Positions 31,013-44,503 of a stretch of DNA of 49,161 nucleotides are shown here, one piece after another. The translations under genes and the position numbers were made by a program. Numbering within the stretch: the stretch's first letter is position 1; every line of letters starts with the position of its first letter. Source of the DNA: Verrucomicrobiota bacterium (GTDB taxonomy: Bacteria; Verrucomicrobiota; Verrucomicrobiia; Limisphaerales; UBA9464). The stretch lies in NCBI GenBank assembly GCA_947471985.1, contig CANIZL010000047.1, positions 1-49,161 of the forward strand, read 5' to 3'. The notes under the pieces are model-generated. The model ran no database searches and was not told the DNA's origin. It saw only the letters and a list, made by a program, of their open reading frames with translations.

Positions 31013-34000
31013 ATGTTGATCCTCCGCAGCCTGTGGGCTGCCTGCATTTGTGGCTGGCTGTTGGGCTTGAGCGGACACGGCGCTCCCCCTGAGGGACCGG
31101 CCCTACCGCTGCAGTATCTGAGGCCTCTGGCCGAGCCGCCCGGCCCGTCCACCCGCCGCGGACCGATCGTGCTGAGCGAGGTCATGTATCACCCGGCGGC
31201 CCGGACCGACGGGCGAAAACTGCAGTTTATCGAGCTGTTCAATTCCCAGGTCTTTTTCGAAGACCTGTCCGGCTGGAGTCTGCGGGGGGATGTGGAATTC
31301 ACCTTTCCCACCAACACGGTTCTGCCGGCGCGCGGCTATCTGGTCGTGGCGGCGAATCCCGTCGATTTGCGCGCCGTTTACCCGGAACTGTCCGCCGCGG
31401 GTGCGGTCCCCGTGCTGGGCCCCTTTGATCGCAATGGCGCGTTATCGCACGGCAGCGGCACGCTGCGACTCCACAATCAACTCGGGGCCGTGGTCTTTGA
31501 ACTGAATTACCGCAGCGATCTACAATGGCCGGTGGCGGCCGATGGCGGCGGACCTTCCCTCGCCCTGGCCCGTCCCAGCTATGGCGAACGACACCCTTAC
31601 GCCTGGGGTCCCAGCGAAGTTCCCGGCGGTTCCCCCGGCGGCCCGGAGCCGGCCCGATCGATCACCGCCCAGGAAGCCATTGTCATCAACGAAATCCTGG
31701 CCCACTCGACACCCCCGGCGCGCGACTTCGTGGAGCTCTTCAACTATTCCGAGGCTCCCGTGGATCTCTCCGGGTGCATCCTCACCGACGATCCCACCAC
31801 AAATCGTTTTGTGATCCCGGCGGGCACGAAAATACCCGCCCGCGGCCACGTTTCGTGGGATCAAAGTGCCCTCGGATTCGGCCTCAGCTCCGCCGGCGAA
31901 CAGCTCTTCCTGTACTCCTCCAACCGCGTGCGCGTTCTCGACGCCATTCAGTTCGATGCGCAGGAGAGCGGGATCGCCTGGGGTCGCTACCCGGACGGAG
32001 CCGCCCAGTTTTTGCGCCTGCAAAGTCCCACGCCGAGTGCACCCAATGCCGCGGCCCTCGTTTCGCCGGTGGTGCTCAACGAAATTATGTATCATCCGGC
32101 CAGTGAACTCGTGGAGGATGAGTACGTGGAGATCCACAACCAAAGCCCGCAGGCGGTCGACCTGGCGGGTTGGCGCATTGAAGAAGGCGCCCACTTCACC
32201 TTTCCGGCCGGCACCGTCATTCCGCCGAACGGCTATTTTGTCATTGCCCGCAATCTGGCGTCGCTGTCGATGAATTACCCCACCTATAATCCCGCCACTT
32301 GGTTCGGCGATTTTACGGGTTCCCTCTCTGGCGCTGGTGAACGACTCACCCTCACCAAGCCATCGTTGACCCTGCAGACCAACCGGTCCGGAACGGTCAG
32401 CACTACCCAATTGAATGTGGTGGTGGACGAAGTGACCTACGGCACGGGTGGACGCTGGGGGCGTTGGGCCGACGGCGGCGGCAGTTCGCTGGAACGGCGG
32501 GATCCGCGGGCGGACGGACGTCAGGCGGCCAATTGGGCGGACTCCGACGAAACCCGGAAATCGCCCTGGGTCACGCTGCAGGCCACGGGCCCCTCCGACT
32601 TGGGAAACAGCTCCGCGGATGCGCTCCAAATCCTCTCTCATGGCGCTGGAGAATACCTCATCGACGATGTCGTCGCTCAGGTGGGAGCCGGCACCAATCG
32701 GGTGGTTAATAGTTCCTTCGATACCGGCACCGCGGGATGGACCTTTCAAGGCAATCACCTGAATTCGATCTGGGAACCGACGGAAGGCTCAAGCGCCCCG
32801 GGTTGCCTGCGCCTGCGGGCCAACGGCGCGGGTACGACGGGACCGAATCGCGCCTATACCCGCGTCACCGCCATCGCCGCCGGCAACACGGTGACGCTCC
32901 GGGCACGGGTCCGGTGGTTGCGCGGTGCACCGGCCATCCTTTTTCGGATCAAGGGGAATTATATGGAAATTCCGGGCTATGCCCTGGCCGCCCGCAATCT
33001 CGGTACCCCGGGTGCGCCCAACACGGCCCGTCTCCCGGCATCCGTGCCCAACATTACCGAGGTCTCCCATTTTCCCATCCTGCCCCGCTCCTCCGAGGTC
33101 GTGCGCATCACCGCGCGGATTCAGGATCCCGCCGGCGTGGAGACCGTCGTGCTCCGATATCACTCGGATACGACCACCACGGCGTTCAATACGCTGACGA
33201 TGACCAATTCCGGGGCCGGCTGGTATAGCGCCGAACTGCCACCGTTGTCCGGTCTGCAGCAATTTCACCTGGTGGTCACCAACTCGCTGGGACGCGTCAC
33301 CCTGTTTCCCTCCGACGCTCCGGACCGGGAGTGCAACATCCGTTACGGAGATCCCCTCCAATCGGGGGCGCTCGGTCAGTACCGGATGTGGGTCAGCAAA
33401 ACCAACGTCACGCGGTGGACCAAACGCCACGCCCTCGCCAACGATCCCTTGGACACCACCTTTGTCTACGGATCCGCCCGGGCCATTTACAATGCCGGGT
33501 CCCAATATTCCGGCAGCCCTTACCACGCGCCCGGCTACAATTCGCCGACCGGTAACAACTGCGACTACGTCGTGGTGCTGCCGCCGGATGATCCCTTCCT
33601 GGGCGAAACCGAACTCAATCTGCTCCAGCCCGGCAATGGCGGGAGCGATCCAACGGTGCAGGGCGAACAACAAGCCTATTGGATCGCCCGCCAGATCGGC
33701 CTGCCGAACTGCCATCGACGCTCCATCCTCGTCTGGTTCAACGGAACCAAGCGCGGCGTGGCCTACGACGACGCGCAACAGCCCAATGGCGACTTTATCC
33801 GGCAATGGTATCCCGATGACGACCAGGGCGATTTGCGCAAAATTCAGCTCTGGTTTGAATTCGAGGCGGACGGCAGCACCTTCAACGCCGTGGGGGCCAC
33901 CCTGGATAATTTTGTCAGCCAGGGAAAAAAGAAGCTGGCCCGCTACCGCTGGAACTGGCCGCGGCGGAGCTACGGCAACGACCCCAATAATTTCACCAAC

Positions 34001-36883
34001 ATCTATGCGCTGGTGGATGCGGTGACGACGAAGGAGGTAACGGATCGCTATACCCGGGTGTTGGAGCAGGCCACGGATGTCAGTGAATGGTTCCGGACGC
34101 ACGTGGTGGAGCATCTCGTCGGCAATAACGACAGCTATAGTTACGGCGGCGGGCAGAATATGTACGCCTACAAACCGGAGCGCGGTCCCTGGCAGCTGTT
34201 GATTTGGGACATTGATTTCGCGTTCGCCTCGGCGGATCCGAGCTCGGACATGACCAGCATCGGCGGCTCCAATGTGGGTCCGGTGAATTCGCACCCGCCC
34301 TTCGCCCGCAAGTACTACCAGGCGATGATCGACGCGTTGCGTGGGCCCCTCGATACCAACCGTTTCAATGCCATTTTGGATGCGCGTTACAACGGTCTGC
34401 GCGCCAATGGAGCCCAGGCAGGCTCGCCCTCCAGCATCAAAACCTTCCTGCGCTCGCGGCGCGATTTCATCTCCCGCCTGATCACCAACAACACCGCCCC
34501 CCTCGCGCTCAATGTGAGCCTGACCAATGGGGTTACTTCAGGAATCAATCTCGTCACCCTCTCGGGCACGGCGCCGCTGGACGCCCGGGCTCTGACCCTC
34601 GATGGGCAAGTCATCCCGGTGACCTGGACCACGCGGTCCGCCTGGACCGCGCGTGTTCCCTTCCCCTCTGGAACCAATGTCGTGACTTTGGGCGGGATCG
34701 ACGGACGGGGTTTGCCGCTGACCAACCCGCCCGTCGCTGTCCGCGTGATTGTAACCGCACCGGATGAATCGCCGGTCGGTCGAATTCTCATCAGCGAAAT
34801 TCTGCCGCAACCGGCCAGTGCCTTGTCGGCGAGTTGGATCGAACTTCAAAACACGTCCTTTAGTTCCGCCTTTGATTTGTCGGGCTGGCGGCTGGAAGGA
34901 TTGAATTACAGCGTCCCGCCCGGCACGGTGTTGGCTGCGGGTGGGCGCCTGGTCATTCCTTCGAGTCGCTATTTGTTCGGGCAGACCTACGGCCCGCAAC
35001 TGCCGGTCGCCGGCGAGTTTGCCGGTCGCCTGGATCCCGCGGGGGAAACCTTGCGCTTGATGCAGCCGGCCAGTGCGGGTACGCCCGAACGGATTATTAA
35101 TGAAATGCGCTATGGCACCGTTGCGCCCTGGCCGGAGATCATTCCGGGGACGGCGCTGCAATTGATCGACACCGCGCAGGACAATCGTCGCCCGGCCAAT
35201 TGGCTGATGGCCTCGAAGACCAGTTTGCCCACCGACTGGCTGCGAGTGTCGGCCACGCTCCCGGCCACCAGTTCGACCGTTTACCTCTATCTGGAGAATG
35301 CCGGAGACGTCTATATCGACGATTGGAGTTTGGTGGCGGGTCCGACGGCGGAAGTGGGCCCCAACCAGCTCGCTGGGGGAGATTTCGAAGGCGCGTTTCC
35401 AGGAGCCTTCCTGGTGGGATCCAATCATGCGGCATCGACCCTCACCACCGGCTTCGCGCACAGTGGCACCCATTCGCTGCATCTTGTAGCCGACAGCCCG
35501 GGAAGCACCCGGGGCTCGGCTCTCACCCTGGATCTGCCCGTGGCCCTGACCAATGGCGCCGAATACACCCTCAGCTTCTGGTATCGCCCCAAAGCGGACG
35601 GAGGCTTGGTGAGTAGTCGGTTTTCGGGTGGAACCGTCAAAGCCACCGCGGAACTTGATGGTGCCGGCATCGTCACGGGCGCGCCGGCGACCCCAGGCAC
35701 AGGTAACACGGGCGCACGTCCCCTACCCCCGCTTTACGCGCTTGCGTTGAATGAAATCATGCCCGTGAACACGGCGACGCTGCGCGATAATCGCGATCGC
35801 TTCCGACCCTGGGTTGAGATTTACAACGCCGGGAACACGGACCAGTCCCTCAGTGATTGCTTTTTGAGTCCCACTCCGGAGAACCTCGCTGCATGGCGTT
35901 TCCCTGCCGGTAGCATGGTGCCGGCCAAGGGATTTCTGGTGGTTTGGCTGGACGGAGACACGACGGCCAGCAGCGCGGCGGTCCCGCATGCCAGCTTCGC
36001 GATCGAACCCGCCGGGACGCTGATCTTGAGCCAATTGCTGGAGGGACGCGTCGGCGCGCTGGATCAGCTCAGTTATGAAGACCCGGGACCCGATCGCTCG
36101 TATGGCGACATCCCGGACGGGGACCTCCTGCGCCGACGGGTTTTCAGCACGCCCACCCCGGGCCGCATCAACTCGGCGGCGGATCCCGCCGCCCGGGTCG
36201 TGATCAATGAATGGCTGGCGGATAATGCCAACGTTTTGGCGGATCCGGCGGACGGTGATTTCGAGGATTGGTTTGAGCTGTACAATTCCGGCACCCTGCC
36301 GGTGAATTTGGGCGGCTACTTTCTGAGCAATTCGCGGGACAATCCCACCCGATTCCCGATCCCGGTCGGACGAATTCTGCCGGCTGGCGGGCATCTCTTG
36401 GTTTGGGCCGACGATGAAGCGTCCCAGAACGGTACGAACCAGACCGATCTCCACGTGGATTTCAAACTGAGCAAGGCGGGGGATACGATAGTCTTTGCCG
36501 GCCCGGATGGAACGATCCTGGACGCGGTCACCTTCGCGGGGCAAAGCCGGAATGTCAGCCAGGGACGGGAACCCGACGGCGGGGCGGCGGTGGGGAATTT
36601 CGCGCAACCGACTCCCGGGTTGGCAAATCCAGCGACCGCTGCGCCGGCCCGCATCACCCGGGTGGAACCGGCGGGCAATCAGGTAGCCTTGGCCTTTGCC
36701 GGCGCGCCGCTGCGCCGGTATGGGCTCCAAGTTCGCACGAACCTCATCGACACGACCGCCGGGTGGCGATTGGAATCGTCGACCCGGACCGACGCGGTCG
36801 GCCAGGGACAGTTCGTGAGTCCCCTCGCCGCCGACGCACCGGTGAATTTTTACCGCCTCGTGCCTTCGCCGGGGGATTTCTGA
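31013..36883 (+). CDS. giant exported protein with six lamin-tail domains and CotH
   Basis: A 1956-residue protein with a signal peptide (LWAACICGWLLGLSGHG). Lamin-tail domains start near residues 50 (GPIVLSEVMYHPA), 222 (AIVINEILAHS), 352 (PVVLNEIMYHPA), 1257 (RILISEILPQPA), 1575 (ALNEIMPVNTATLRD) and 1727 (VVINEWLADNANVLAD). Carbohydrate-binding-like beta segments with D-D-V/W endings occur near 540-650 and 1400-1560. A CotH kinase-like domain spans about 770-1170, with SILVWFNGTKRGVAYDDAQ near 905 and LLIWDIDFAFAS near 1062 as the metal-binding pair. The protein ends in a beta module finishing NFYRLVPSPGDF. It is much larger than most CotH proteins. The likely location is the cell surface or outside; substrate unknown. 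It follows the DUF1501 gene of set 2. Confidence 0.9.
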   Translation: MLILRSLWAACICGWLLGLSGHGAPPEGPALPLQYLRPLAEPPGPSTRRGPIVLSEVMYHPAARTDGRKLQFIELFNSQVFFEDLSGWSLRGDVEFTFPTNTVLPARGYLVVAANPVDLRAVYPELSAAGAVPVLGPFDRNGALSHGSGTLRLHNQLGAVVFELNYRSDLQWPVAADGGGPSLALARPSYGERHPYAWGPSEVPGGSPGGPEPARSITAQEAIVINEILAHSTPPARDFVELFNYSEAPVDLSGCILTDDPTTNRFVIPAGTKIPARGHVSWDQSALGFGLSSAGEQLFLYSSNRVRVLDAIQFDAQESGIAWGRYPDGAAQFLRLQSPTPSAPNAAALVSPVVLNEIMYHPASELVEDEYVEIHNQSPQAVDLAGWRIEEGAHFTFPAGTVIPPNGYFVIARNLASLSMNYPTYNPATWFGDFTGSLSGAGERLTLTKPSLTLQTNRSGTVSTTQLNVVVDEVTYGTGGRWGRWADGGGSSLERRDPRADGRQAANWADSDETRKSPWVTLQATGPSDLGNSSADALQILSHGAGEYLIDDVVAQVGAGTNRVVNSSFDTGTAGWTFQGNHLNSIWEPTEGSSAPGCLRLRANGAGTTGPNRAYTRVTAIAAGNTVTLRARVRWLRGAPAILFRIKGNYMEIPGYALAARNLGTPGAPNTARLPASVPNITEVSHFPILPRSSEVVRITARIQDPAGVETVVLRYHSDTTTTAFNTLTMTNSGAGWYSAELPPLSGLQQFHLVVTNSLGRVTLFPSDAPDRECNIRYGDPLQSGALGQYRMWVSKTNVTRWTKRHALANDPLDTTFVYGSARAIYNAGSQYSGSPYHAPGYNSPTGNNCDYVVVLPPDDPFLGETELNLLQPGNGGSDPTVQGEQQAYWIARQIGLPNCHRRSILVWFNGTKRGVAYDDAQQPNGDFIRQWYPDDDQGDLRKIQLWFEFEADGSTFNAVGATLDNFVSQGKKKLARYRWNWPRRSYGNDPNNFTNIYALVDAVTTKEVTDRYTRVLEQATDVSEWFRTHVVEHLVGNNDSYSYGGGQNMYAYKPERGPWQLLIWDIDFAFASADPSSDMTSIGGSNVGPVNSHPPFARKYYQAMIDALRGPLDTNRFNAILDARYNGLRANGAQAGSPSSIKTFLRSRRDFISRLITNNTAPLALNVSLTNGVTSGINLVTLSGTAPLDARALTLDGQVIPVTWTTRSAWTARVPFPSGTNVVTLGGIDGRGLPLTNPPVAVRVIVTAPDESPVGRILISEILPQPASALSASWIELQNTSFSSAFDLSGWRLEGLNYSVPPGTVLAAGGRLVIPSSRYLFGQTYGPQLPVAGEFAGRLDPAGETLRLMQPASAGTPERIINEMRYGTVAPWPEIIPGTALQLIDTAQDNRRPANWLMASKTSLPTDWLRVSATLPATSSTVYLYLENAGDVYIDDWSLVAGPTAEVGPNQLAGGDFEGAFPGAFLVGSNHAASTLTTGFAHSGTHSLHLVADSPGSTRGSALTLDLPVALTNGAEYTLSFWYRPKADGGLVSSRFSGGTVKATAELDGAGIVTGAPATPGTGNTGARPLPPLYALALNEIMPVNTATLRDNRDRFRPWVEIYNAGNTDQSLSDCFLSPTPENLAAWRFPAGSMVPAKGFLVVWLDGDTTASSAAVPHASFAIEPAGTLILSQLLEGRVGALDQLSYEDPGPDRSYGDIPDGDLLRRRVFSTPTPGRINSAADPAARVVINEWLADNANVLADPADGDFEDWFELYNSGTLPVNLGGYFLSNSRDNPTRFPIPVGRILPAGGHLLVWADDEASQNGTNQTDLHVDFKLSKAGDTIVFAGPDGTILDAVTFAGQSRNVSQGREPDGGAAVGNFAQPTPGLANPATAAPARITRVEPAGNQVALAFAGAPLRRYGLQVRTNLIDTTAGWRLESSTRTDAVGQGQFVSPLAADAPVNFYRLVPSPGDF

Positions 36884-36926
36884 AGTCCCCAGGGGGGCGG
36901 ATCGGCAGGTTCCGCAACCGGTGCCG

Positions 36927-36981
36927 GGTCTGGGTGAATTCGCCCAGACCGGGGGCCTGAACTGGGGCGTCCAACCCCAGT
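36927..36981 (+). terminator. two adjacent hairpins after the giant gene
   Basis: GGTCTGGG (36927-36934), eight bases, CCCAGACC (36943-36950) is a perfect 8-bp stem. ACTGGGG (36961-36967), seven bases, CCCCAGT (36975-36981) is a perfect 7-bp stem. They start 43 bp behind the stop of the giant gene. No T-tract follows either, so they would end transcription with help or protect the mRNA 3' end. Confidence 0.45.
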
Positions 36982-37062
36982 CCCCGGGTGGGCACGGTTG
37001 AGGGAGGAGCGAAAGTCCGCGGAAACGCTTCGAATACTGGGCAGTTTTGGTCTGAATCGAAC

Positions 37063-37078
37063 TGGCATGCCGGTTGCA
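37063..37078 (+). promoter_or_regulatory. sigma-54 promoter
   Basis: TGGCATGCCGGTTGCA matches the consensus TGGCACG-N4-TTGCW at 11 of 12 fixed positions, with the essential GG (37064-37065) and GC (37076-37077) separated by the required 10 bases. The predicted start is near 37089, about 47 bases before the ATG at 37136. Sigma-54 promoters need an ATP-dependent activator bound upstream; no activator gene or clear enhancer dyad was found in the window. Confidence 0.75.
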
Positions 37079-37135
37079 GAGGAAGGTCACAACACCGGTT
37101 AGTCCGGTTCAAAAAGTAACAACTCATTAGGTACT

Positions 37136-37597
37136 ATGAAGAATCTCATCAAACTGACGGCCCTTATGGTGGCTGGTCTTACGTGTGGTCTGGTTACGCT
37201 GGCGGGTCCGGGTCCCGAAGGCGAGAAGCCCGAAGGTGCGGGAAAGGGTGGTCCGGGCGGTGGAAAATTCGAGGTGCCCGCGGTCGGTCATTTGCCCAAG
37301 AATGTCGAGATCCCCGCCACGCTGAAGAAGGCGCTGGAAGAGTACAATGCGCTCCGCCTCAAGCAGAATGAACTCCAGAAGGCGCTGGCCACGACTATGG
37401 GAACGGCCACGGCCGAGGAAAAGACCAAGATCAAGGAACAGCTCAAGTCCAACCGGGATAAGTTCCTGGAAGACACCAAGCAGCTCCGCGCGGACATTCG
37501 CGAACAGATCAAGGCGCTGCGCGCCGCGCTCAAGGACACCCCGCCCGTTGATGGTGGCGACAAGGGTGGCAAGGGCCATGGTCGCAAGGACGGCTGA
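37136..37597 (+). CDS. small secreted helical protein under sigma-54
   Basis: A 153-residue protein with a signal peptide (LIKLTALMVAGLTCGLVTLAG), a glycine/proline-rich linker, and a charged helical core of about 75 residues (ATLKKALEEYNALRLKQNEL, KIKEQLKSNRDKFLEDTKQL, ADIREQIKALRAAL) that should form a coiled coil. The tail is basic and glycine-rich (GGDKGGKGHGRKDG). No domain is recognised; the architecture loosely recalls periplasmic Spy/CpxP-like helical proteins, without their motifs. The codons are well chosen (many AAG, CTG, GGT), hinting at strong expression. It has its own sigma-54 promoter (37063-37078) and its own intrinsic terminator (37661-37700), so it is probably a single-gene unit. 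Cellular role unknown. Confidence 0.85.
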   Translation: MKNLIKLTALMVAGLTCGLVTLAGPGPEGEKPEGAGKGGPGGGKFEVPAVGHLPKNVEIPATLKKALEEYNALRLKQNELQKALATTMGTATAEEKTKIKEQLKSNRDKFLEDTKQLRADIREQIKALRAALKDTPPVDGGDKGGKGHGRKDG

Positions 37598-37660
37598 TCG
37601 GCGAGCGTTATCCGGCCGTCCCGCTCCACTGCATGGGCCTTCGTGACGGACTTTTTCCGC

Positions 37661-37700
37661 GGGCCGGTGGTTGTTTTCCGACAATCACCGGCCCTTTTTT
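37661..37700 (+). terminator. intrinsic terminator
   Basis: GGGCCGGTG (37661-37669) pairs perfectly with CACCGGCCC (37686-37694), extended by GTTGT/ACAAT with one wobble, and is followed by six T (37695-37700). It lies 63 bp behind the small secreted-protein gene and before the barrel gene. Frames that start at 37633 and read through it are therefore unlikely to begin there. Confidence 0.88.
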
Positions 37701-37728
37701 CGTGCCGGGCTTGGCGGGTCGGTGGCGC

Positions 37729-38931
37729 GTGAAGCTCCGCGCGTGGTTCGCGTTGCGGCTCTTTGCCGGACTCCTGATTGCCGGATCGGGCGTTCACAGC
37801 CATGCGGGTGGACATCCCCCGACCGCACCGCTGCCCGGGAATCCCACGGAATCGAGCGGCCTCTGGCAGCCGTTTCTCACCGTGCGCGCCGGCACCGGGT
37901 ATCGCAGTAATCCGCTGTTGGGGAACGCCGCCTTGGGCACCGCCTTTGGTTCCGCGGGAGCCGATCTTTTTCTCCTTCGGTTGCCCACCGATAACACCAC
38001 CTTCACCGCATTTTTCAACGCGGAGGATATCCGGTACTTCACCACGCTGCGACCGGCCACCAACGAGCCGGGCGCGTCCCAGGAGCGGACGTTTCTCACG
38101 GCCGTGCGGGTCGGCCACAGCTTCGGCCAAGCCACCAACTGGACCCTGAAGTTCGAGGGACGACATCTCTACAATGATCAATACCTCAACACGAGTTCCT
38201 TTGATTCCCTCTCCACCAACCTCAGCAGCCTGCGGGCGGTCACGCATATTGGCACGATCATCCCTTCCGTCGCGTGGCAGGTCGCCGAGCCGTGGCGCTT
38301 GGAACTGGGTGTTATCGGCACCCGCCAGATTTATCTAAACGCGGACGCCAACACCGGTCTGTCCAGCACCTGGGAAACCGGACCGCGCCTGACCAGCGCC
38401 TTTCAGACCCGTCGACTGGGTTCCCTGGAGCTGGAATTCACGGGGATCCACCGGGAATTTGACGACCGCGTGCAAAGTTCCGCGCTCGGACTCCCTCTCG
38501 CCGACACCCGCCTTCGTCAGGATGACCTCCGCGCCGAACTCACCTGGCGACGCAACTGGGGCGCGGCGCGCGCCTGGCAGACGACGTGGCGAACCTTCTA
38601 CGTGTGGCGACGCGAGAACGGCGAGGGCTATACGGACTATGATCGACTCGGGCTCGTTGGCACGGTGGGCTATCAAGCCACCCATTGGTCGGCGCGGGTG
38701 ACGGGGCGCTGGTCCACCTACGATTATCCCCGGTCGTTTGTGGTTTATAGCGGCGTCCTGGCCGTGCCTCGGGAACGTGAAACAGTGCAAGCGGAGGCGC
38801 GGCTTGAATACAAACTGAGTTCGAAGGTGCGAATGTATTTGGAATATCAGTGGGACCGCGAGCAGGCCAATCGGCTCAGCGACAACTACGCGGCGCATGT
38901 CGGCACGCTGGGGATGGAATATGATTTTTGA
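37729..38931 (+). CDS. outer-membrane beta-barrel-like protein
   Basis: A 400-residue protein with a signal peptide (LRAWFALRLFAGLLIAG, then GVHSHAGG) and a body of alternating-residue strands typical of outer membrane barrels, for example FLTVRAGTGYRSNPLL, NWTLKFEGRHLYNDQYL, PWRLELGVIGTRQIYL, LGSLELEFTGIHREFDD and KVRMYLEYQWDREQANRL. The last residue is Phe (GTLGMEYDF), the usual barrel-assembly signal. I choose the GTG at 37729 because the earlier ATG at 37633 would translate the terminator; this start puts the signal peptide at the N-terminus. No specific porin or receptor family is recognised. It is followed by a histidine kinase gene on the same strand after 69 bp. Confidence 0.8.
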   Translation: MKLRAWFALRLFAGLLIAGSGVHSHAGGHPPTAPLPGNPTESSGLWQPFLTVRAGTGYRSNPLLGNAALGTAFGSAGADLFLLRLPTDNTTFTAFFNAEDIRYFTTLRPATNEPGASQERTFLTAVRVGHSFGQATNWTLKFEGRHLYNDQYLNTSSFDSLSTNLSSLRAVTHIGTIIPSVAWQVAEPWRLELGVIGTRQIYLNADANTGLSSTWETGPRLTSAFQTRRLGSLELEFTGIHREFDDRVQSSALGLPLADTRLRQDDLRAELTWRRNWGAARAWQTTWRTFYVWRRENGEGYTDYDRLGLVGTVGYQATHWSARVTGRWSTYDYPRSFVVYSGVLAVPRERETVQAEARLEYKLSSKVRMYLEYQWDREQANRLSDNYAAHVGTLGMEYDF

Positions 38932-39000
38932 GTGGTCGGACCGGAGATTCAATGAAGCTGGCAGCGGCAGCGGGTGGGCGACACTGTGGCACCTCGTTGG

Positions 39001-40437
39001 ATGAACGCCGCCACTCCTGCCTCCCCGCCGACACAGCCCCCCCGCCCGCCCGGCGGGTTTCCGTGGCTGGTGGCCGGCAGTTTGTTGATTGCTTTGGGCC
39101 TCCTGGCCAGCGCCATCGTCCTGACGCAGACCCAACTCCGCGCGGAACTGCGCAATCAATTGGCCAATCGCGACGCTCAGGGGCTCGCGGCGATCGTGCG
39201 CAAACAATTGGCGACGCCCTCCGATACCGGGGATCAGGATCCGCTGCCGGCTCTCTTGGAAGCCCTGATTCTGCCCGAACTTCCCGGGATCTGGAGTGTC
39301 GAACTCTACGACGAAACGGGCCGGCTTTCGGTGTCGCTGCTTCGGGATCCCCGGGCGCATCCCCCCACCCCGATGCAATTTGCCACCGTGGCCCGGGCCT
39401 TGAACGAACGGGATTCTGTAGAGAATCCCACCGTCCTGCCGCTGGCGGCGGAATTCAGTGAGCAAGGTGGCCCACAATTAAACGTGCTGCTGCCCGTGGA
39501 AACAACGCCGTCGATCACCGGCCAAGCGCACCGCCCACCCACGCTGGCGGCGATCACGTTGGATGGTTCCGGGCTGGCCGGTGAATTCGTACGCCTCGAC
39601 CGGACGTTAAGCCGTCGCAGTTGGCTGGTGTTCGGATTGCTCGGAACCGTCATGTCGGTGGCCCTCGGATTGGCTTTCCAGCGACTCATGCGGACGGATC
39701 GATTGCTCCGACAACGGACTGCCCACCTGGAGGTGGCGAATCGCGAACTCACGCTCAGTGCCAAGACCAGTGCCGTGGGGGCCGTGACCGCGCACCTCGT
39801 CCACGGCCTGAAGAATCCGCTCGCCGGATTGCAGCAATTTGTCACTCGCCTGGATCCGGGTGGTACCGCGCCGGAACAGGCCGATGCCGCCGACGCCGCG
39901 GCCACCGCCCGCCGGATGAAAGCGATGATCGACGACGTCGTGCGGGTGCTCCGCGACGAACAGGGTGTGACCGCCTTTGAGCTGACCGTGGCGGAATTGC
40001 TGGCCCACGTGCGGCAACGCTCCGCGGGTGTGGCCAGGGATTTGGGCGTGCAGTTGGACTGTTCCACTGACCTGCCCCTTCCCCTATCCAACCGCACCGC
40101 CAATCTGACGGCTTTGATTCTGGAAAACCTCGTGACCAATGCGCTGCAAGTTCTGACCGCGGGCGGCACGGTTTCGGTCACGGCCCGCGCGGTGGACGGG
40201 GCGGTCCTCCTTCAAGTCCACGACACTGGACCGGGTTTGCCCACAGGGATTCGCGAGCATCTGTTTCAACCCGGGTTCAGCACCAAGATTGGCGGCACGG
40301 GACTGGGACTGGCTCTGAGTCAACAACTGGCTCGCTCCCTGGAGGGAGAACTAACGCTCAGCGGCTCCGATTCCCACGGTACCACGTTTACCCTGCGGCT
40401 GCCCACGGGGCGATCGCCTCGGACCAATTCCGTTTGA
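39001..40437 (+). CDS. orphan sensor histidine kinase, NtrB-like H-box
   Basis: A 478-residue membrane kinase. Membrane helices at about 20-42 (WLVAGSLLIALGLLASAIVL) and about 205-225 (SWLVFGLLGTVMSVALGLAF) enclose a periplasmic sensor of about 165 residues with no recognised domain. The H-box is AHLVHGLKNPLAG with the phospho-accepting His near 268, close to the NtrB form. The ATPase domain shows LILENLVTNALQ, VHDTGPGLP, EHLFQPGFSTK and GGTGLGLALSQQLA, followed by LRLP. No response regulator lies beside it, although kinases with this H-box often pair with sigma-54 activators. A GTG at 38974 would add nine residues; I prefer the ATG. The neighbouring sigma-54 unit and barrel protein are context only. 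Confidence 0.9.
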   Translation: MNAATPASPPTQPPRPPGGFPWLVAGSLLIALGLLASAIVLTQTQLRAELRNQLANRDAQGLAAIVRKQLATPSDTGDQDPLPALLEALILPELPGIWSVELYDETGRLSVSLLRDPRAHPPTPMQFATVARALNERDSVENPTVLPLAAEFSEQGGPQLNVLLPVETTPSITGQAHRPPTLAAITLDGSGLAGEFVRLDRTLSRRSWLVFGLLGTVMSVALGLAFQRLMRTDRLLRQRTAHLEVANRELTLSAKTSAVGAVTAHLVHGLKNPLAGLQQFVTRLDPGGTAPEQADAADAAATARRMKAMIDDVVRVLRDEQGVTAFELTVAELLAHVRQRSAGVARDLGVQLDCSTDLPLPLSNRTANLTALILENLVTNALQVLTAGGTVSVTARAVDGAVLLQVHDTGPGLPTGIREHLFQPGFSTKIGGTGLGLALSQQLARSLEGELTLSGSDSHGTTFTLRLPTGRSPRTNSV

Positions 40438-40588
40438 GGTGTTGCGTTGGGGGGATTCCGGCGCTCACCAATGCCGCTTGGGGGCGGTCTTATTTCGCCA
40501 ATTTACCGCACGAGGTTTGACACTGGTTCCCGGGCGGGACAGCCTGAGCGGGTAAGCCAGATTCTTATGGGCCTGGCGCAATTTTTGT

Positions 40589-43500
40589 ATGAGCATGGAG
40601 AACATAATTCCCCCCGCATTTCGCTCCGGCCGTCGGTGGACCGGCTTGGCCCTGGTGGTCGGCCTCGGGGTCGGCGGCCCGGTCGCTGCCCAGGTGCCCA
40701 CGTTTGGCGGCAACGCGCAGCACACGTCGTTGTACTCCGTGCCGGCCCAGCACTTGTCGCGCATCCGCTGGACGGCGGACATCGACTTGAACAATTCGGG
40801 CCAGTTCGCCCACTACGGCGCGCCGCTGATCACCGCTGCCAATACCGTGATCACCCCCGTGAAGACCGCGGGCAACGGCTTCCAAATCCTGGCCCTGCAA
40901 GGCAGCGACGGCGCCGTTAAATATACCCTCAATACCGACTACATCCTCCCGTCCGCCGGATGGATTCCTGTGTATCAGCCCGTTCTGACCACGGGGCCAG
41001 CCGGTCCCCGACTCTACTACCCGGGTCCCGGCGGAATGCTTTGGCACATCGACAACGCTGATTCCGTGACGCCCGGGGCGCCGGTGGGCGAGGTCTTCTA
41101 CACGAGCCGAGCGACCTATGAGGCTGGAGCCGCCGGATATAACAGTACGGTTTTTATCAATACCCCGATCACGGCCGGCACCGATGGCACCGTCTATTTT
41201 GGGTTCCGGGTACAGGGCACGGCGCCCGCACCCTTGAGTACCACACAGAGCGGGTTTGCCCGCGTGGATGCGGCGGGCACTGCCAGCTATGTGCTCGCCA
41301 GCACCGCCGCCAATGATGTCACCATCGGCCGGGATTCGCACAATTCCGCGCCTGCCCTGAGCGCCGATGGCACCACGCTGTATGTGGTGGTCAAACCGCC
41401 CGCCAGCGACTACGGCGGCTATCTGCTCGGTCTCGACACCGCCACGTTGGCGACCAAATACCGGGTCTTCCTGCGCGATCCTCGAAACAACAATCCTGCG
41501 GGCATTCTCGATCTCAGCACGGCGTCTCCGATGGTGGCTCCGGATGGCGACGTGTACCTCGGGGTCTTTGGCAATCCGGGCAATGGATCGCGGGGCTTCC
41601 TGTTGCGCTTCACCGGCGACCTCGCCGTGCAGAAGACCCCGGGCGGCTTTGGTTGGGACTATACGCCGGCCATCGTGCCGGCCGGCATGGTGCCCTCCTA
41701 TACCGGCAGCTCCAGCTACTTGCTCTTCGCAAAATATAACAATTACGCCTATCAGGACGGCGACGGGGTGAACCGCATCGCCATCCTGGATCCCAATGCG
41801 ACCCAGACGGATCCCCATAGTTCGGCCCCGGGCCTGGTGGAGATGCGCGAAGTGTTGACGGTCATCGGACCGACCCGCGACGACGAGCAACCCGCCATTC
41901 CCCTGGCCGTGCGCGAATGGTGCATCAATGCGCCCGCCATCGATTCCGCGCATCAAAGCGTCCTGGTGCCTTCCGAGGACGGGCATATCTATCGCTGGAA
42001 TCTTGCTGAAAATTCCCTGACCGAGACGCTGGTCCTTTCGAACGGGGTGGGACAACCGTACGTGCCCACCGTGATTGGGCCGGATGGCACGATTTATACC
42101 CTCAACGGCGGGACCCTTTTCGCTCTGGGCGACGATGCGGAGGTCAATCTGTCGCTGACGTCTTCGCTGCCGGACCAGCGCCAGGTGGTGGTGGGAACGC
42201 CCATTACGTTCACCGCCACGGTCACCGGTTCTCCGCCGGGTACGCCCACCGGGACCGTCACCTTTCTCAGCATCACCCGGGACGGTCTGAATCCGGTGAG
42301 CAGTGTCCTGGCGGCGGATGTTCCGTTGGATGCCAACGGCCGGGCCACCGTCACTACGGCCGCGTTACCCGCCGGGGGCAATTTCCTGGGGAGCCATTTC
42401 ATTGCCGCCACTTATAGCGGTGACGGCACGTACCCCGGCGCCAGCGCTCAGCGGGTGCAAAAGATCCACGCTCAGGCGACCACCACGGGGCTGTCCACCG
42501 CGGCTCCGGCCAGCTTTGGTCAACCGGTGGCGCTAACGGCAACGGTCACGGCGGCGACGGGGGTACCCACCGGCATGGTGACGTTTTACGAAGGCACAAC
42601 GATCTTGGGCCAACGCCCGCTCAATGGGTCCGGCGCCTGCTCTTTGACCCTCACGGGACTGAGCGCTGGAAGCCATAGCCTCTCGGCGATCTATGCGTCG
42701 GACACCCATAATGCGGCCAGCACGGGCAGCCTCATCCTGCCGGTTGCCGAAGGAACATCGACCACCCTGGCGGTGACTCCCAACCCGGCCGGCTTTGGTA
42801 CACCGGTCAGCGTGACCGCCACGGTTCTCGCTGCGGATATTGCCGCGGGAATTCCCACCGGGACGGTTACGTTTCAGGAAGGCGCCAGCACCTTGGGCAC
42901 CGTTGCCGTCGACGGCACGGGCGTGGCGGTTTTGAGTCTGACGAGCCTGCCGACCGGCGCCCACCCCCTTACCGCGACCTTCACTGGGTCCAGTGGCTGG
43001 GGTAACAGCAGCGGATCGGCTCCCACGCTGAACATCACCGATGGCACCACGACCACCTTGGCTGCGTCCCCGAATCCTGCGGTGTTTGGTCAATCGGTGA
43101 CGTTCACCGCCACCGTTGCTCCCGCGCACGCGGGCGCCGGGATCCCAGCTGGAAGCGTGGCCTTCACGGAAGGCGTCACCACGCTGGGAATTGTTGCCGT
43201 GGATATCACCGGCAAGGCCGTCTTGAATCTTACGAGCCTGACCATCGGTTCGCATGCGCTCACCGCCACGTTCACTGGGGCGAACGGTTGGGGTAATAGC
43301 AGCGGGTCGGCGGTTACCCAGAACATCACCGATGGCACCACGATCACCCTGGCTGCGTCCCCGAATCCTGCGGTGTTTGGTCAATCGGTGACGTTCACCG
43401 CCACCGTTGCTCCCGCGCACGCAGGGGCGGGAGTGCCCACCGGGAGCGTTGTCTTCAAGGAAGGCGTCACCACGCTGGGAACTGTTGCCGTGGATGTCAC

Positions 43501-44503
43501 GGGCAAGGCGACTTTGAACCGCACCAATCTGCCTGCGGGTGCGCACAACATCACCGCCAATTTCACCGGGGCGAACGGTTGGGGTAATAGCAGCGGGTCG
43601 GCGGTTACCCAGAACATCACCGATGGCACCACGACCACCGTGGCCGCGGCCCCCAATCCATCGGCTTTCGGTCAATCGGTGGCGATCACGGCCACGATTA
43701 CTGCCGCACACGCGGGAGCGGGGGTTCCCGCCGGGAGCGTTGCCTTTAAGGAAGGCGCCACCACACTCGGAACCGTTACTGTCGATAGTGCTGGCAAGGC
43801 GATCCTGAATTTGGGCAACCTGATCACGGGCCCGCATGCGCTTACCGCCACGTTCACCGGCGCGAATGGCTGGGGCAACAGCAGTGGGTCGGCCCCCGCT
43901 ATCAATATCACGGACGGTACGACAACCGGACTGGCGGCGTCACCGAATCCCTCCGCCTTCGGGCAATCGGTGACCTTCACTGCGATTGTGGCGGCCGCCC
44001 ACGCGGCGGCGGGGACGCCAACGGGTAGCGTCACTTTCCGACGGGGAACCACCGTCCTGGGCTCCAGCCCACTCAATGCCTCCCGGCAGGCCGCCCTCAC
44101 TCTTTCCACCCTGCCCGCGGGAGCCAACACCATCACGGCGAGCTTTGTCGGCACGGGCGGCTGGGGTAACAGCACGGCAACCCTCAGCCAGACTGTCCGG
44201 CCGGATACCACGCCTCCCAGCGTGCCCGGTAACGTCACAGCGACGACGGGACCGGCACGAAGAGCGATCACACTGGGGTGGACGGCCTCCACCGACGTCT
44301 CCGGCATCGCCCAATACCAAGTGTATCGGAGCACGACTCAGGCGGGCGTTTATTCCCTGATCGGTTCGGTCAACGCCCCGACCACCACGTACGTCGATAC
44401 CCTGGCGAGCTCCGGACAGGTCCGGTGGTATTACGTCGTGGCGGTGGATACCGTGGGGAATCGTTCGGCCGCCTCCGCCAAAGTGCAGGGTCGATCCCGC
44501 TAG
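40589..44503 (+). CDS. exported beta-propeller protein with tandem Ig repeats
   Basis: A 1304-residue protein with a signal peptide (WTGLALVVGLGVGGPVAAQ). Residues of about 35-515 resemble a PQQ-type beta-propeller: repeated segments such as GNAQHTSLYSVPAQHLSRI, PLITAANTVITPV, SPMVAPDGDVYLGVFGN, SVLVPSEDGHIYRWN and PTVIGPDGTIYTLNGGTLFAL. From about 519 to 1206 there are seven bacterial Ig-like (Big_3_5) domains; the last five are near-identical 97-residue units. A fibronectin type III domain closes the protein (IALGWTASTD-like, near 1215-1300, reading TLGWTASTDVSGIAQYQVYR). No sortase, PEP-CTERM or type 9 signal is visible. An adhesin or structural surface role is likely but not shown. Its TAG stop overlaps the GTG of the next gene by one base. 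Confidence 0.9.
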   Translation: MSMENIIPPAFRSGRRWTGLALVVGLGVGGPVAAQVPTFGGNAQHTSLYSVPAQHLSRIRWTADIDLNNSGQFAHYGAPLITAANTVITPVKTAGNGFQILALQGSDGAVKYTLNTDYILPSAGWIPVYQPVLTTGPAGPRLYYPGPGGMLWHIDNADSVTPGAPVGEVFYTSRATYEAGAAGYNSTVFINTPITAGTDGTVYFGFRVQGTAPAPLSTTQSGFARVDAAGTASYVLASTAANDVTIGRDSHNSAPALSADGTTLYVVVKPPASDYGGYLLGLDTATLATKYRVFLRDPRNNNPAGILDLSTASPMVAPDGDVYLGVFGNPGNGSRGFLLRFTGDLAVQKTPGGFGWDYTPAIVPAGMVPSYTGSSSYLLFAKYNNYAYQDGDGVNRIAILDPNATQTDPHSSAPGLVEMREVLTVIGPTRDDEQPAIPLAVREWCINAPAIDSAHQSVLVPSEDGHIYRWNLAENSLTETLVLSNGVGQPYVPTVIGPDGTIYTLNGGTLFALGDDAEVNLSLTSSLPDQRQVVVGTPITFTATVTGSPPGTPTGTVTFLSITRDGLNPVSSVLAADVPLDANGRATVTTAALPAGGNFLGSHFIAATYSGDGTYPGASAQRVQKIHAQATTTGLSTAAPASFGQPVALTATVTAATGVPTGMVTFYEGTTILGQRPLNGSGACSLTLTGLSAGSHSLSAIYASDTHNAASTGSLILPVAEGTSTTLAVTPNPAGFGTPVSVTATVLAADIAAGIPTGTVTFQEGASTLGTVAVDGTGVAVLSLTSLPTGAHPLTATFTGSSGWGNSSGSAPTLNITDGTTTTLAASPNPAVFGQSVTFTATVAPAHAGAGIPAGSVAFTEGVTTLGIVAVDITGKAVLNLTSLTIGSHALTATFTGANGWGNSSGSAVTQNITDGTTITLAASPNPAVFGQSVTFTATVAPAHAGAGVPTGSVVFKEGVTTLGTVAVDVTGKATLNRTNLPAGAHNITANFTGANGWGNSSGSAVTQNITDGTTTTVAAAPNPSAFGQSVAITATITAAHAGAGVPAGSVAFKEGATTLGTVTVDSAGKAILNLGNLITGPHALTATFTGANGWGNSSGSAPAINITDGTTTGLAASPNPSAFGQSVTFTAIVAAAHAAAGTPTGSVTFRRGTTVLGSSPLNASRQAALTLSTLPAGANTITASFVGTGGWGNSTATLSQTVRPDTTPPSVPGNVTATTGPARRAITLGWTASTDVSGIAQYQVYRSTTQAGVYSLIGSVNAPTTTYVDTLASSGQVRWYYVVAVDTVGNRSAASAKVQGRSR
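42752..44206 (+). repeat. five 291-bp in-frame Ig repeats
   Basis: Units start at 42752, 43043, 43334, 43625 and 43916, each exactly 291 bases with no insertion or deletion. Units 2 and 3 share long identical runs (for example the stretch encoding ASPNPAVFGQSVTFTATVAP). Each ends with a GNSSGSA...NITD linker except the last. The exact length and DNA identity point to recent expansion or gene conversion. Confidence 0.92.

Follow-up and report, generated by a model that had tools for sequence, protein, structure and literature searches.

A predicted sigma-54 two-component module with a small exported protein and an outer-membrane barrel in Verrucomicrobiota

What would switch on a small secreted-protein gene that stands in front of a barrel gene and a histidine kinase gene, and do these neighbours take part in its regulation? 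The question is raised by contig CANIZL010000047.1 of a Verrucomicrobiota bacterium (contig 47 of a 6.4-Mb genome), whose whole length of 49,161 nucleotides we call the window and in which the small gene, the barrel and the kinase all lie on the + strand. Our answer, to which we give a probability of about 0.75, is that they would form a sigma-54 two-component module dedicated to the small gene, which would work much as ZraPSR does and have a barrel partner and an effector of a new family. Comparison of related loci showed that the predicted promoter, enhancer, gene order, co-occurrence and terminator are conserved; we infer the binding of an activator to the enhancer and the order of events, and we regard a protective function and a feedback as speculative. 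The features of the locus are as follows.

36929 to 36948, no strand assigned: predicted upstream activating sequence 1, TCTGGGTGAATTCGCCCAGA, palindromic TGGG-N8-CCCA (position weight matrix (PWM) score 14.2; combined pattern search)
36962 to 36980, no strand assigned: probable second activating sequence, CTGGGGCGTCCAACCCCAG (sequence read by eye)
37063 to 37078, + strand: predicted sigma-54 -24/-12 promoter element, TGGCATGCCGGTTGCA (motif and conservation)
37136 to 37597, + strand: small secreted protein of 153 amino acids, ATG at 37136 (open reading frame (ORF), AlphaFold, family profile A1)
37661 to 37701, + strand: predicted intrinsic terminator 3' of the small gene (stem, then six T)
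37729 to 38931, + strand: predicted outer-membrane beta-barrel protein of 400 amino acids, likely GTG start (16 predicted strands; co-occurrence with the small gene)
38974 to 40437, + strand: histidine kinase, possible ATG start at 39001 (domain matches; ZraS-like catalytic core)

Promoter, enhancer and transcript of the small gene

The predicted promoter element has the GG-N10-GC spacing and is separated by 57 bases from the ATG of the small gene; an earlier note on this DNA had recognised the element correctly and had miscounted the distance as 58 bp. The motif alone is unremarkable, with one match in the 49-kb window at up to one mismatch versus 0.91 expected, so the case for a promoter depended on conservation. 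We collected 36 small-gene loci, the window included, from relatives that are non-independent samples. A strict TGGCAY-N7-GC element was located within 260 bases upstream of the chosen start in 34 of them. Of 14,400 windows drawn at random from these loci, 264 (1.8%) contained one, and so did 2 of the 409 regions examined in front of long ATG ORFs. The two remaining loci are L062, where C replaces the first T, and L078, which has none. In an alignment of 35 promoters (the C variant included), in which most positions were fixed by the search pattern itself, T preceded the invariant GC in 26 at a position that the pattern left free, and the flanks were weakly or not conserved. The pattern TGGC[AG]Y-N7-GC was also present within 300 bases in 34 of 40 further genomes of the order (967 of 16,000 random windows, 6%), 35 of which were from genera outside the first set and 5 of which shared a genus with it; in these loci the start codon was picked by rule, and several or many were cut by contig ends. 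Outside the order, the element was found at 10 of 11 loci, versus 317 of 4,400 random windows (7%). Lack of conservation in orthologous loci had been named in the earlier note as the finding that would speak against the promoter, and the result was the opposite. A chance promoter, not excludable by the motif score, is ruled out by this conservation. At the small gene of the window the GG-N10-GC element is close in sequence to TGGCAC-N5-TTGCW, a defining feature of sigma-54-dependent promoters, and rpoN is present in the genome.

A palindrome search upstream of the 35 promoters revealed TGGG-N8-CCCA in 27, whereas the best of 20 shuffled sets gave 5. This search took the first loose promoter match, which was wrong for at least L040 and L047, and it was corrected by a matrix scan. 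With a matrix of roughly TTGGGGAATANTCCCCAA, a score above 9 was reached in 34 of the 36 loci (95 of 2160 random windows), all but L078 and L089, at positions 65-160 bp upstream of the promoter element. The sites cluster at two distances from the -24 element, about 80-92 and 113-126 bases upstream, and are often paired. In the window, the site at 36929-36948 lies 114 bases before the -24 element, and the one at 36962-36980 lies 82 bases before it. The latter has, as read by eye, one extra base between its half-sites and was for this reason unscored by the PWM; its distance agrees with the nearer site of the relatives, and it is probably a second activating sequence. The matrix also scored above 9 in 31 of the 40 further loci, which had not been used to build it (110 of 2000 random windows), and, outside the order, at 6 of 10 promoter-bearing loci (15 of 550). 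Judging from these patterns, TGGG-N8-CCCA most likely serves as an enhancer for an AAA+ activator, which would bind to it. In L237, L238, L243 and L244, which belong to a genus with a rearranged gene order, the best upstream matches were low-scoring and of the TGGG-N8-CCCG type, meaning that the enhancer is absent or altered; perhaps the activator there has a changed specificity.

Behind the small gene, a stem of 15 pairs at 37661-37694, with six T after it, was the strongest of 5 terminator-like sites in 36880-40650, a region whose shuffles yield 3.8 such sites of any strength. Folding predicts a terminator behind the small gene in 26 of 36 loci, compared with 15 of 360 control windows; counting perfect stems alone, the figures are 13 of 36 and 20 of 1080. 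No sigma-70 promoter was found by a scan of 36880-40650. The single-gene sigma-54 unit closed by a terminator, as the earlier note described it, is in agreement with these results.

To how many such units the regulation would extend was estimated within the genome. The combined enhancer and promoter pattern, which is strict and would miss irregular sites, occurs at three places, one of them the small gene; the others are on contig 110, inside a 172-codon open frame, and on contig 73, and the reversed control gave none. TGGCAY-N6-TGCW occurs 28 times in the genome versus 68 for its reversed control. A large regulon was rejected on these counts and the three places of the strict combined pattern, and the regulon looks small. 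In another genome (G047), a second perfect enhancer, TGGGGAATGTTCCCCA, with a TGGCAY element was noticed at about 2518-2634 of locus L150 (G047:C265:11517-11633), before a gene for a secreted repeat protein of 1093 amino acids, which is a possible second target in that genome.

Gene order, spread and the partner of the kinase

By protein search, the small gene was present in 30 of 58 genomes, the window's own included. The barrel gene follows the small gene in 33 of the 36 loci, and the order small gene, barrel, kinase recurs in 29, as the earlier note would have it. Where an activator gene adjoins, the usual order is activator, small gene, barrel, kinase. The barrel gene of L045 contains a stop codon. 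Among the 35 genomes of the family (own included), the small gene and the barrel were found in exactly the same 27. A kinase ortholog (E <1e-45) is present in those 27 and in G017, G025 and G029, and the other five have none or a distant one; an activator ortholog is present in 26 of the 27, with G028 as the exception. A response regulator that co-occurs with the kinase, which the earlier note had proposed to look for, was thereby found.

In G017 (L082) and G025 (L081), the activator gene is directly followed by a kinase gene without a recognisable periplasmic sensor, and neither the small gene nor the barrel was found. In G025, the one of the two that was inspected, there was no -24/-12 element or enhancer between the activator and kinase genes. 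Both genomes are of the same genus, so the joint loss is probably one event. G029 keeps part of the kinase sensor; this genome is 70% complete and for that reason decides nothing. The joint absence in G017 and G025 lends modest support to a tie between the small gene, the barrel and the kinase sensor, and likewise to the earlier idea of a kinase whose signal is connected with the small protein or the barrel.

Within the order, the small-family profile A1 matched 123 of 293 genomes. The barrel was located after the small gene in 28 of the 40 further loci and the activator before it in 20; in L231, the small gene comes after barrel and kinase. Across a sample of the phylum, the small-family profile matched 13 of 288 genomes and the kinase profile 24 of 387, own genome included in both. 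Outside the order, L240, L241, L242 and L245 have activator, small gene, barrel and kinase in this order, and L236, L237, L238, L243 and L244, all from one genus, have activator, barrel, kinase and small gene, each with the promoter element 14-52 bases before the small gene. In L239 the barrel follows the small gene. L246 (G509) had neither a promoter nor module neighbours and is probably not a member. Taxon labels were available for 15 loci, all from metagenome bins: 14 read Verrucomicrobia or Verrucomicrobiales and 1 Akkermansia. The last is L159 (CAMCFL010000176.1), in a bin labelled Akkermansia muciniphila, which has activator, small gene, barrel and promoter, and whose label may be wrong. 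As far as sequence comparison goes, the module occurs through one order of Verrucomicrobiota and in a few families outside it, and it was met again outside the class.

The promoter might be real and the barrel and kinase nonetheless unrelated to it, being neighbours by descent only. The terminator between the small gene and the barrel would fit this explanation, as would the location of the kinase or activator on another contig in some genomes. Yet the neighbourhood is kept in many genera of the order as well as outside the class, the four genes stay together even when rearranged, and the presence patterns of small gene and barrel are identical; we hold mere neighbourhood to be very improbable.

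The kinase ORF contains the H-box HLVHGLKNPLAG, which the earlier note had called NtrB-like, and its identity as a histidine kinase is confirmed by a match to HATPase_c (E 2e-22); HisKA scored 25.9 bits, slightly below the cut-off of 26.9. Two hydrophobic segments, recognised by eye, flank about 160 residues that presumably form a periplasmic sensor. The closest solved chain is ZraS 9jfj (E 2.2e-30), and the best-scoring NCBIfam kinase model is also ZraS. The description of this kinase as an orphan did not hold: in 23 of 36 loci, the gene of an NtrC-like response regulator is no more than about 1.2 kb away (2 divergent, a few cut by a contig end), and a search with the L048 activator located an ortholog (64% identity) on contig 1 of the window's genome, so that the kinase is an orphan only locally. 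This copy runs off the contig end at the start of its helix-turn-helix (HTH) domain. In the two divergent cases, L053 and L057, the activator gene points away from the small gene, and the enhancer region is therefore common to both genes. Kinase and activator would form a cognate pair.

The L039 activator is composed of receiver, sigma-54 AAA+ and Fis-type HTH domains. Its family has a variant loop, GAFTDA in 15 of 17 sequences and GSFTDA in 2, with exact GAFTGA in none; the own copy reads GAFTDA, and of 14 further rows 12 read GAFTDA, 1 GSFTDA and 1 was misread. There are 14 other sigma-54 activator matches in the window's genome, and the 8 that were read carry GAFTGA. The pertinent passages of PMC2941729 describe a glycine-to-aspartate change in NorR that gives GAFTDA, by which repression from the sensor domain is lost and enhancer-dependent activity is kept, and a natural GAFTDA activator of Desulfovibrio vulgaris is recorded in a section of PMC4641369. 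The loop is thus a variant within the NtrC family and not a ground for exclusion, and by its domains the L039 activator is an NtrC-family protein.

The products and a proposed mechanism

The small protein has a signal-like N-terminus (by eye), a linker rich in Pro and Gly, and a tail of Gly, Lys and Arg. AlphaFold predicted two confident helices, 61-90 and 93-134, in a hairpin-like arrangement with disordered flanks. Among 28 members, the mature protein lacks cysteine in 26 and the tail is net basic in 27; the small proteins of the five members of the rearranged genus contain cysteines. The window's protein had no match above the Pfam cut-off, it and the L039 protein had no NCBIfam match at E 0.01, and the best hit of the small-family profile to solved structures was at E 0.03. 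Fold comparison of the model returned many unrelated helical hairpins as best matches, and Apolipoprotein was the Pfam family that the 28 proteins matched most often (11 of 28, best E 2.5e-5), which we attribute to similar amphipathic helices. We propose that they represent a new family of exported helical proteins, with a function suggested by context. For the second ORF, AlphaFold gave a barrel of 16 strands with a mean predicted local distance difference test score of 81, in keeping with the earlier note. Among the best 50 matches listed, the model resembled porins and, equally, BamA/TpsB barrels (Z 17.5-19.6), so the fold does not point to secretion; Pfam porin models stayed below cut-off in the barrels of the relatives.

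Behind the kinase, 18 of 34 loci (L042-L046, L048-L051, L055, L057, L058, L060, L062, L067 and L072-L074) have a fifth gene, about 2.8-3.6 kb after the start of the small gene. It encodes a secreted protein of about 700 amino acids with 'AVGNQGTVLTSPDG..W' repeats, propeller-like by eye. A promoter shared with this gene was considered and rejected, since a match within 300 bases of the ORF start, in either direction, was present in only 3 of 18, and upstream in 1. No copy was found in the window by tblastn; its place is occupied at 40589-44503 by a secreted protein of 1304 amino acids with seven Big_3_5 Ig-like repeats. On the other side, a secreted protein of 1956 amino acids is encoded at 31013-36883, and its end adjoins the enhancer region. 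Once the genes of the module, the frames antisense to them and the repeat protein are set aside, no ORF cluster was present in at least 6 of the 34 loci, L078 and L089 having been left out of this analysis.

The small protein might instead be a surface or matrix component, exported through the barrel or anchored by it, whose deployment would be timed by the kinase in a PrsK/PrsR-like manner. The identical presence of small gene and barrel in the 35 family genomes, the large repeat protein behind the kinase, and the disordered linker and basic tail of the small protein are all consistent with such a role, and PEP-CTERM systems offer a precedent, as PrsK/PrsR with sigma-54 are thought to control surface proteins in the portions of PMC1569441 and PMC9850573 devoted to them. 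However, no sorting signal was recognised, the two small proteins scanned had no NCBIfam match, and a barrel that resembles diffusion porins as much as TpsB/BamA gives no pointer to secretion. We consider a surface role possible, if on the whole unlikely.

A nutrient-sensing system is another alternative: the barrel would be a substrate porin, the kinase would sense the imported ligand in the periplasm, and the small protein would bind or buffer it. Sigma-54 systems of the DctBD type work with transporters. The barrel fold is near that of porins (tied with the other barrels among the matches listed), and sigma-54 activators are linked to the transport of carboxylates and nitrogen compounds in the pertinent part of PMC3162934. 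Against this, the absence of a further common ORF cluster means that no transporter or catabolic gene is conserved beside the module in the 34 loci, the sigma-54 target is a small charged helical protein and not a transporter, and the barrel gene lies behind the terminator in a region where the sigma-70 scan gave no promoter. Nutrient sensing seems to us distinctly improbable.

In the dedicated module that we prefer, the kinase (38974-40437) would detect an envelope signal with its periplasmic domain and phosphorylate the NtrC-like activator, encoded by a neighbour gene in most relatives and on another contig here. The activator would bind the pair of palindromes that lie about 82 and 114 bp ahead of the -24 element, and it would remodel RNA polymerase-sigma-54 at one main promoter. 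The outcome would be a tightly switched single-gene transcript that stops at the strong terminator. The secreted helical-hairpin product may then act in the envelope with the 16-stranded barrel, probably in a protective or chaperone-like way, and, more speculatively, may report back to the kinase.

Several findings weigh against this proposal. The promoter is missing at 6 and the enhancer at 9 of the 40 further loci. In the rearranged genus no scoring enhancer was found at four loci of the five, which account for all four misses outside the order, and one of the two enhancers of the window has an irregular spacer. Neither sequence nor fold points to an activity of the small protein, whose model fits many unrelated hairpins. 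In the window's genome the pairing of kinase and activator rests on orthology, with the activator gene elsewhere and at a contig end, and the joint-loss case is made up of two related genomes and probably a single event.

A bolder and tentative extension, which we think rather unlikely to be true, is a self-monitoring envelope module across Verrucomicrobiota, in which the kinase sensor would read the state of the small protein and barrel (free versus bound or exported) and the GAFTDA activator would give an all-or-none response at one target. If so, the product of the circuit would also be its signal, and the small protein would represent a new class of effector for two-component feedback. Under the dedicated module as such, an unnamed gene cluster of a poorly studied phylum becomes a circuit for which a promoter, an enhancer, an activator, a kinase and one main target are predicted. 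It would give experiments on sigma-54 control in Verrucomicrobiota a direct starting point, it provides a naturally occurring group of activators with GAFTDA, and it would lead towards a new exported family of helical proteins that accompanies one particular outer-membrane barrel.

Comparison with known systems

The earlier note had known of no described system with these three parts. Our literature searches agree, with the correction that the system has at least four parts: no paper joining Verrucomicrobia, sigma-54 and enhancer binding protein was found, and none on the module among the leading matches of broad topic searches (titles and abstract openings). A recent survey of sigma-54 regulons names Verrucomicrobiota, in its relevant passages, for other genes only (PMC12316311).

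ZraS-ZraR-ZraP of E. coli and Salmonella shares with the module a ZraS-like kinase core, an NtrC-like regulator, a sigma-54 promoter and a small exported protein. In the parts of PMC4987338 that treat it, ZraP is a zinc-binding periplasmic chaperone of an envelope-stress system, and ZraR drives the divergent zraSR and zraP, whereas the module genes are mostly co-directional. The module differs further in the barrel gene and in the GAFTDA loop of its activator. Membership in the ZraP/Spy/CpxP group is ruled out: no ZraP-type family was among the 24 Pfam families matched by any of the 28 small proteins at E 0.01, the LTxxQ motif is absent in the window's small protein (a single copy occurs in 3 of the 28), and the kinase reached 101.2 bits with the ZraS model, below the cut-off of 479.

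PEP-CTERM systems with PrsK-PrsR likewise combine a kinase with an NtrC-like regulator, and in the sections of PMC1569441 and PMC9850573 concerned their single-gene units for secreted proteins are preceded by a common upstream motif and then -24/-12 elements; their targets are many, in contrast to one main target in the module. Verrucomicrobium spinosum is recorded without PrsK/PrsR in the survey data of PMC1569441 that bear on it. Membership is ruled out by scores below cut-off (81.8 of 300 bits for the window kinase with PrsK, 293.2 of 502.6 for the L039 activator with PrsR) and by the lack of a PEP-CTERM tail in NCBIfam searches of the window and L039 small proteins at E 0.01.

In DbfQ-DbfR-DbfS of Vibrio cholerae, too, a small exported protein is encoded beside a two-component system. 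DbfQ, a PepSY-domain protein, was shown to bind the kinase sensor (PMC12714742), and the passages on DbfQRS in that source make no mention of sigma-54, in which the module differs. The module is not of this group, as no PepSY was found among the Pfam matches of the 28 small proteins at E 0.01.

The phylum of Chlamydia is related to Verrucomicrobiota. Chlamydia has a sigma-54 two-component pair of its own, CtcB-CtcC, and a putative outer-membrane protein is among the products of the genes that it induces; according to the portion of PMC7482065 describing it, CtcC lacks a DNA-binding domain, whereas the module activator has a Fis-type HTH and a conserved predicted enhancer. By analogy, ZraPSR appears closest to the module in working, PEP-CTERM/PrsKR in regulatory layout, and DbfQRS in having a small exported protein tied to its kinase.

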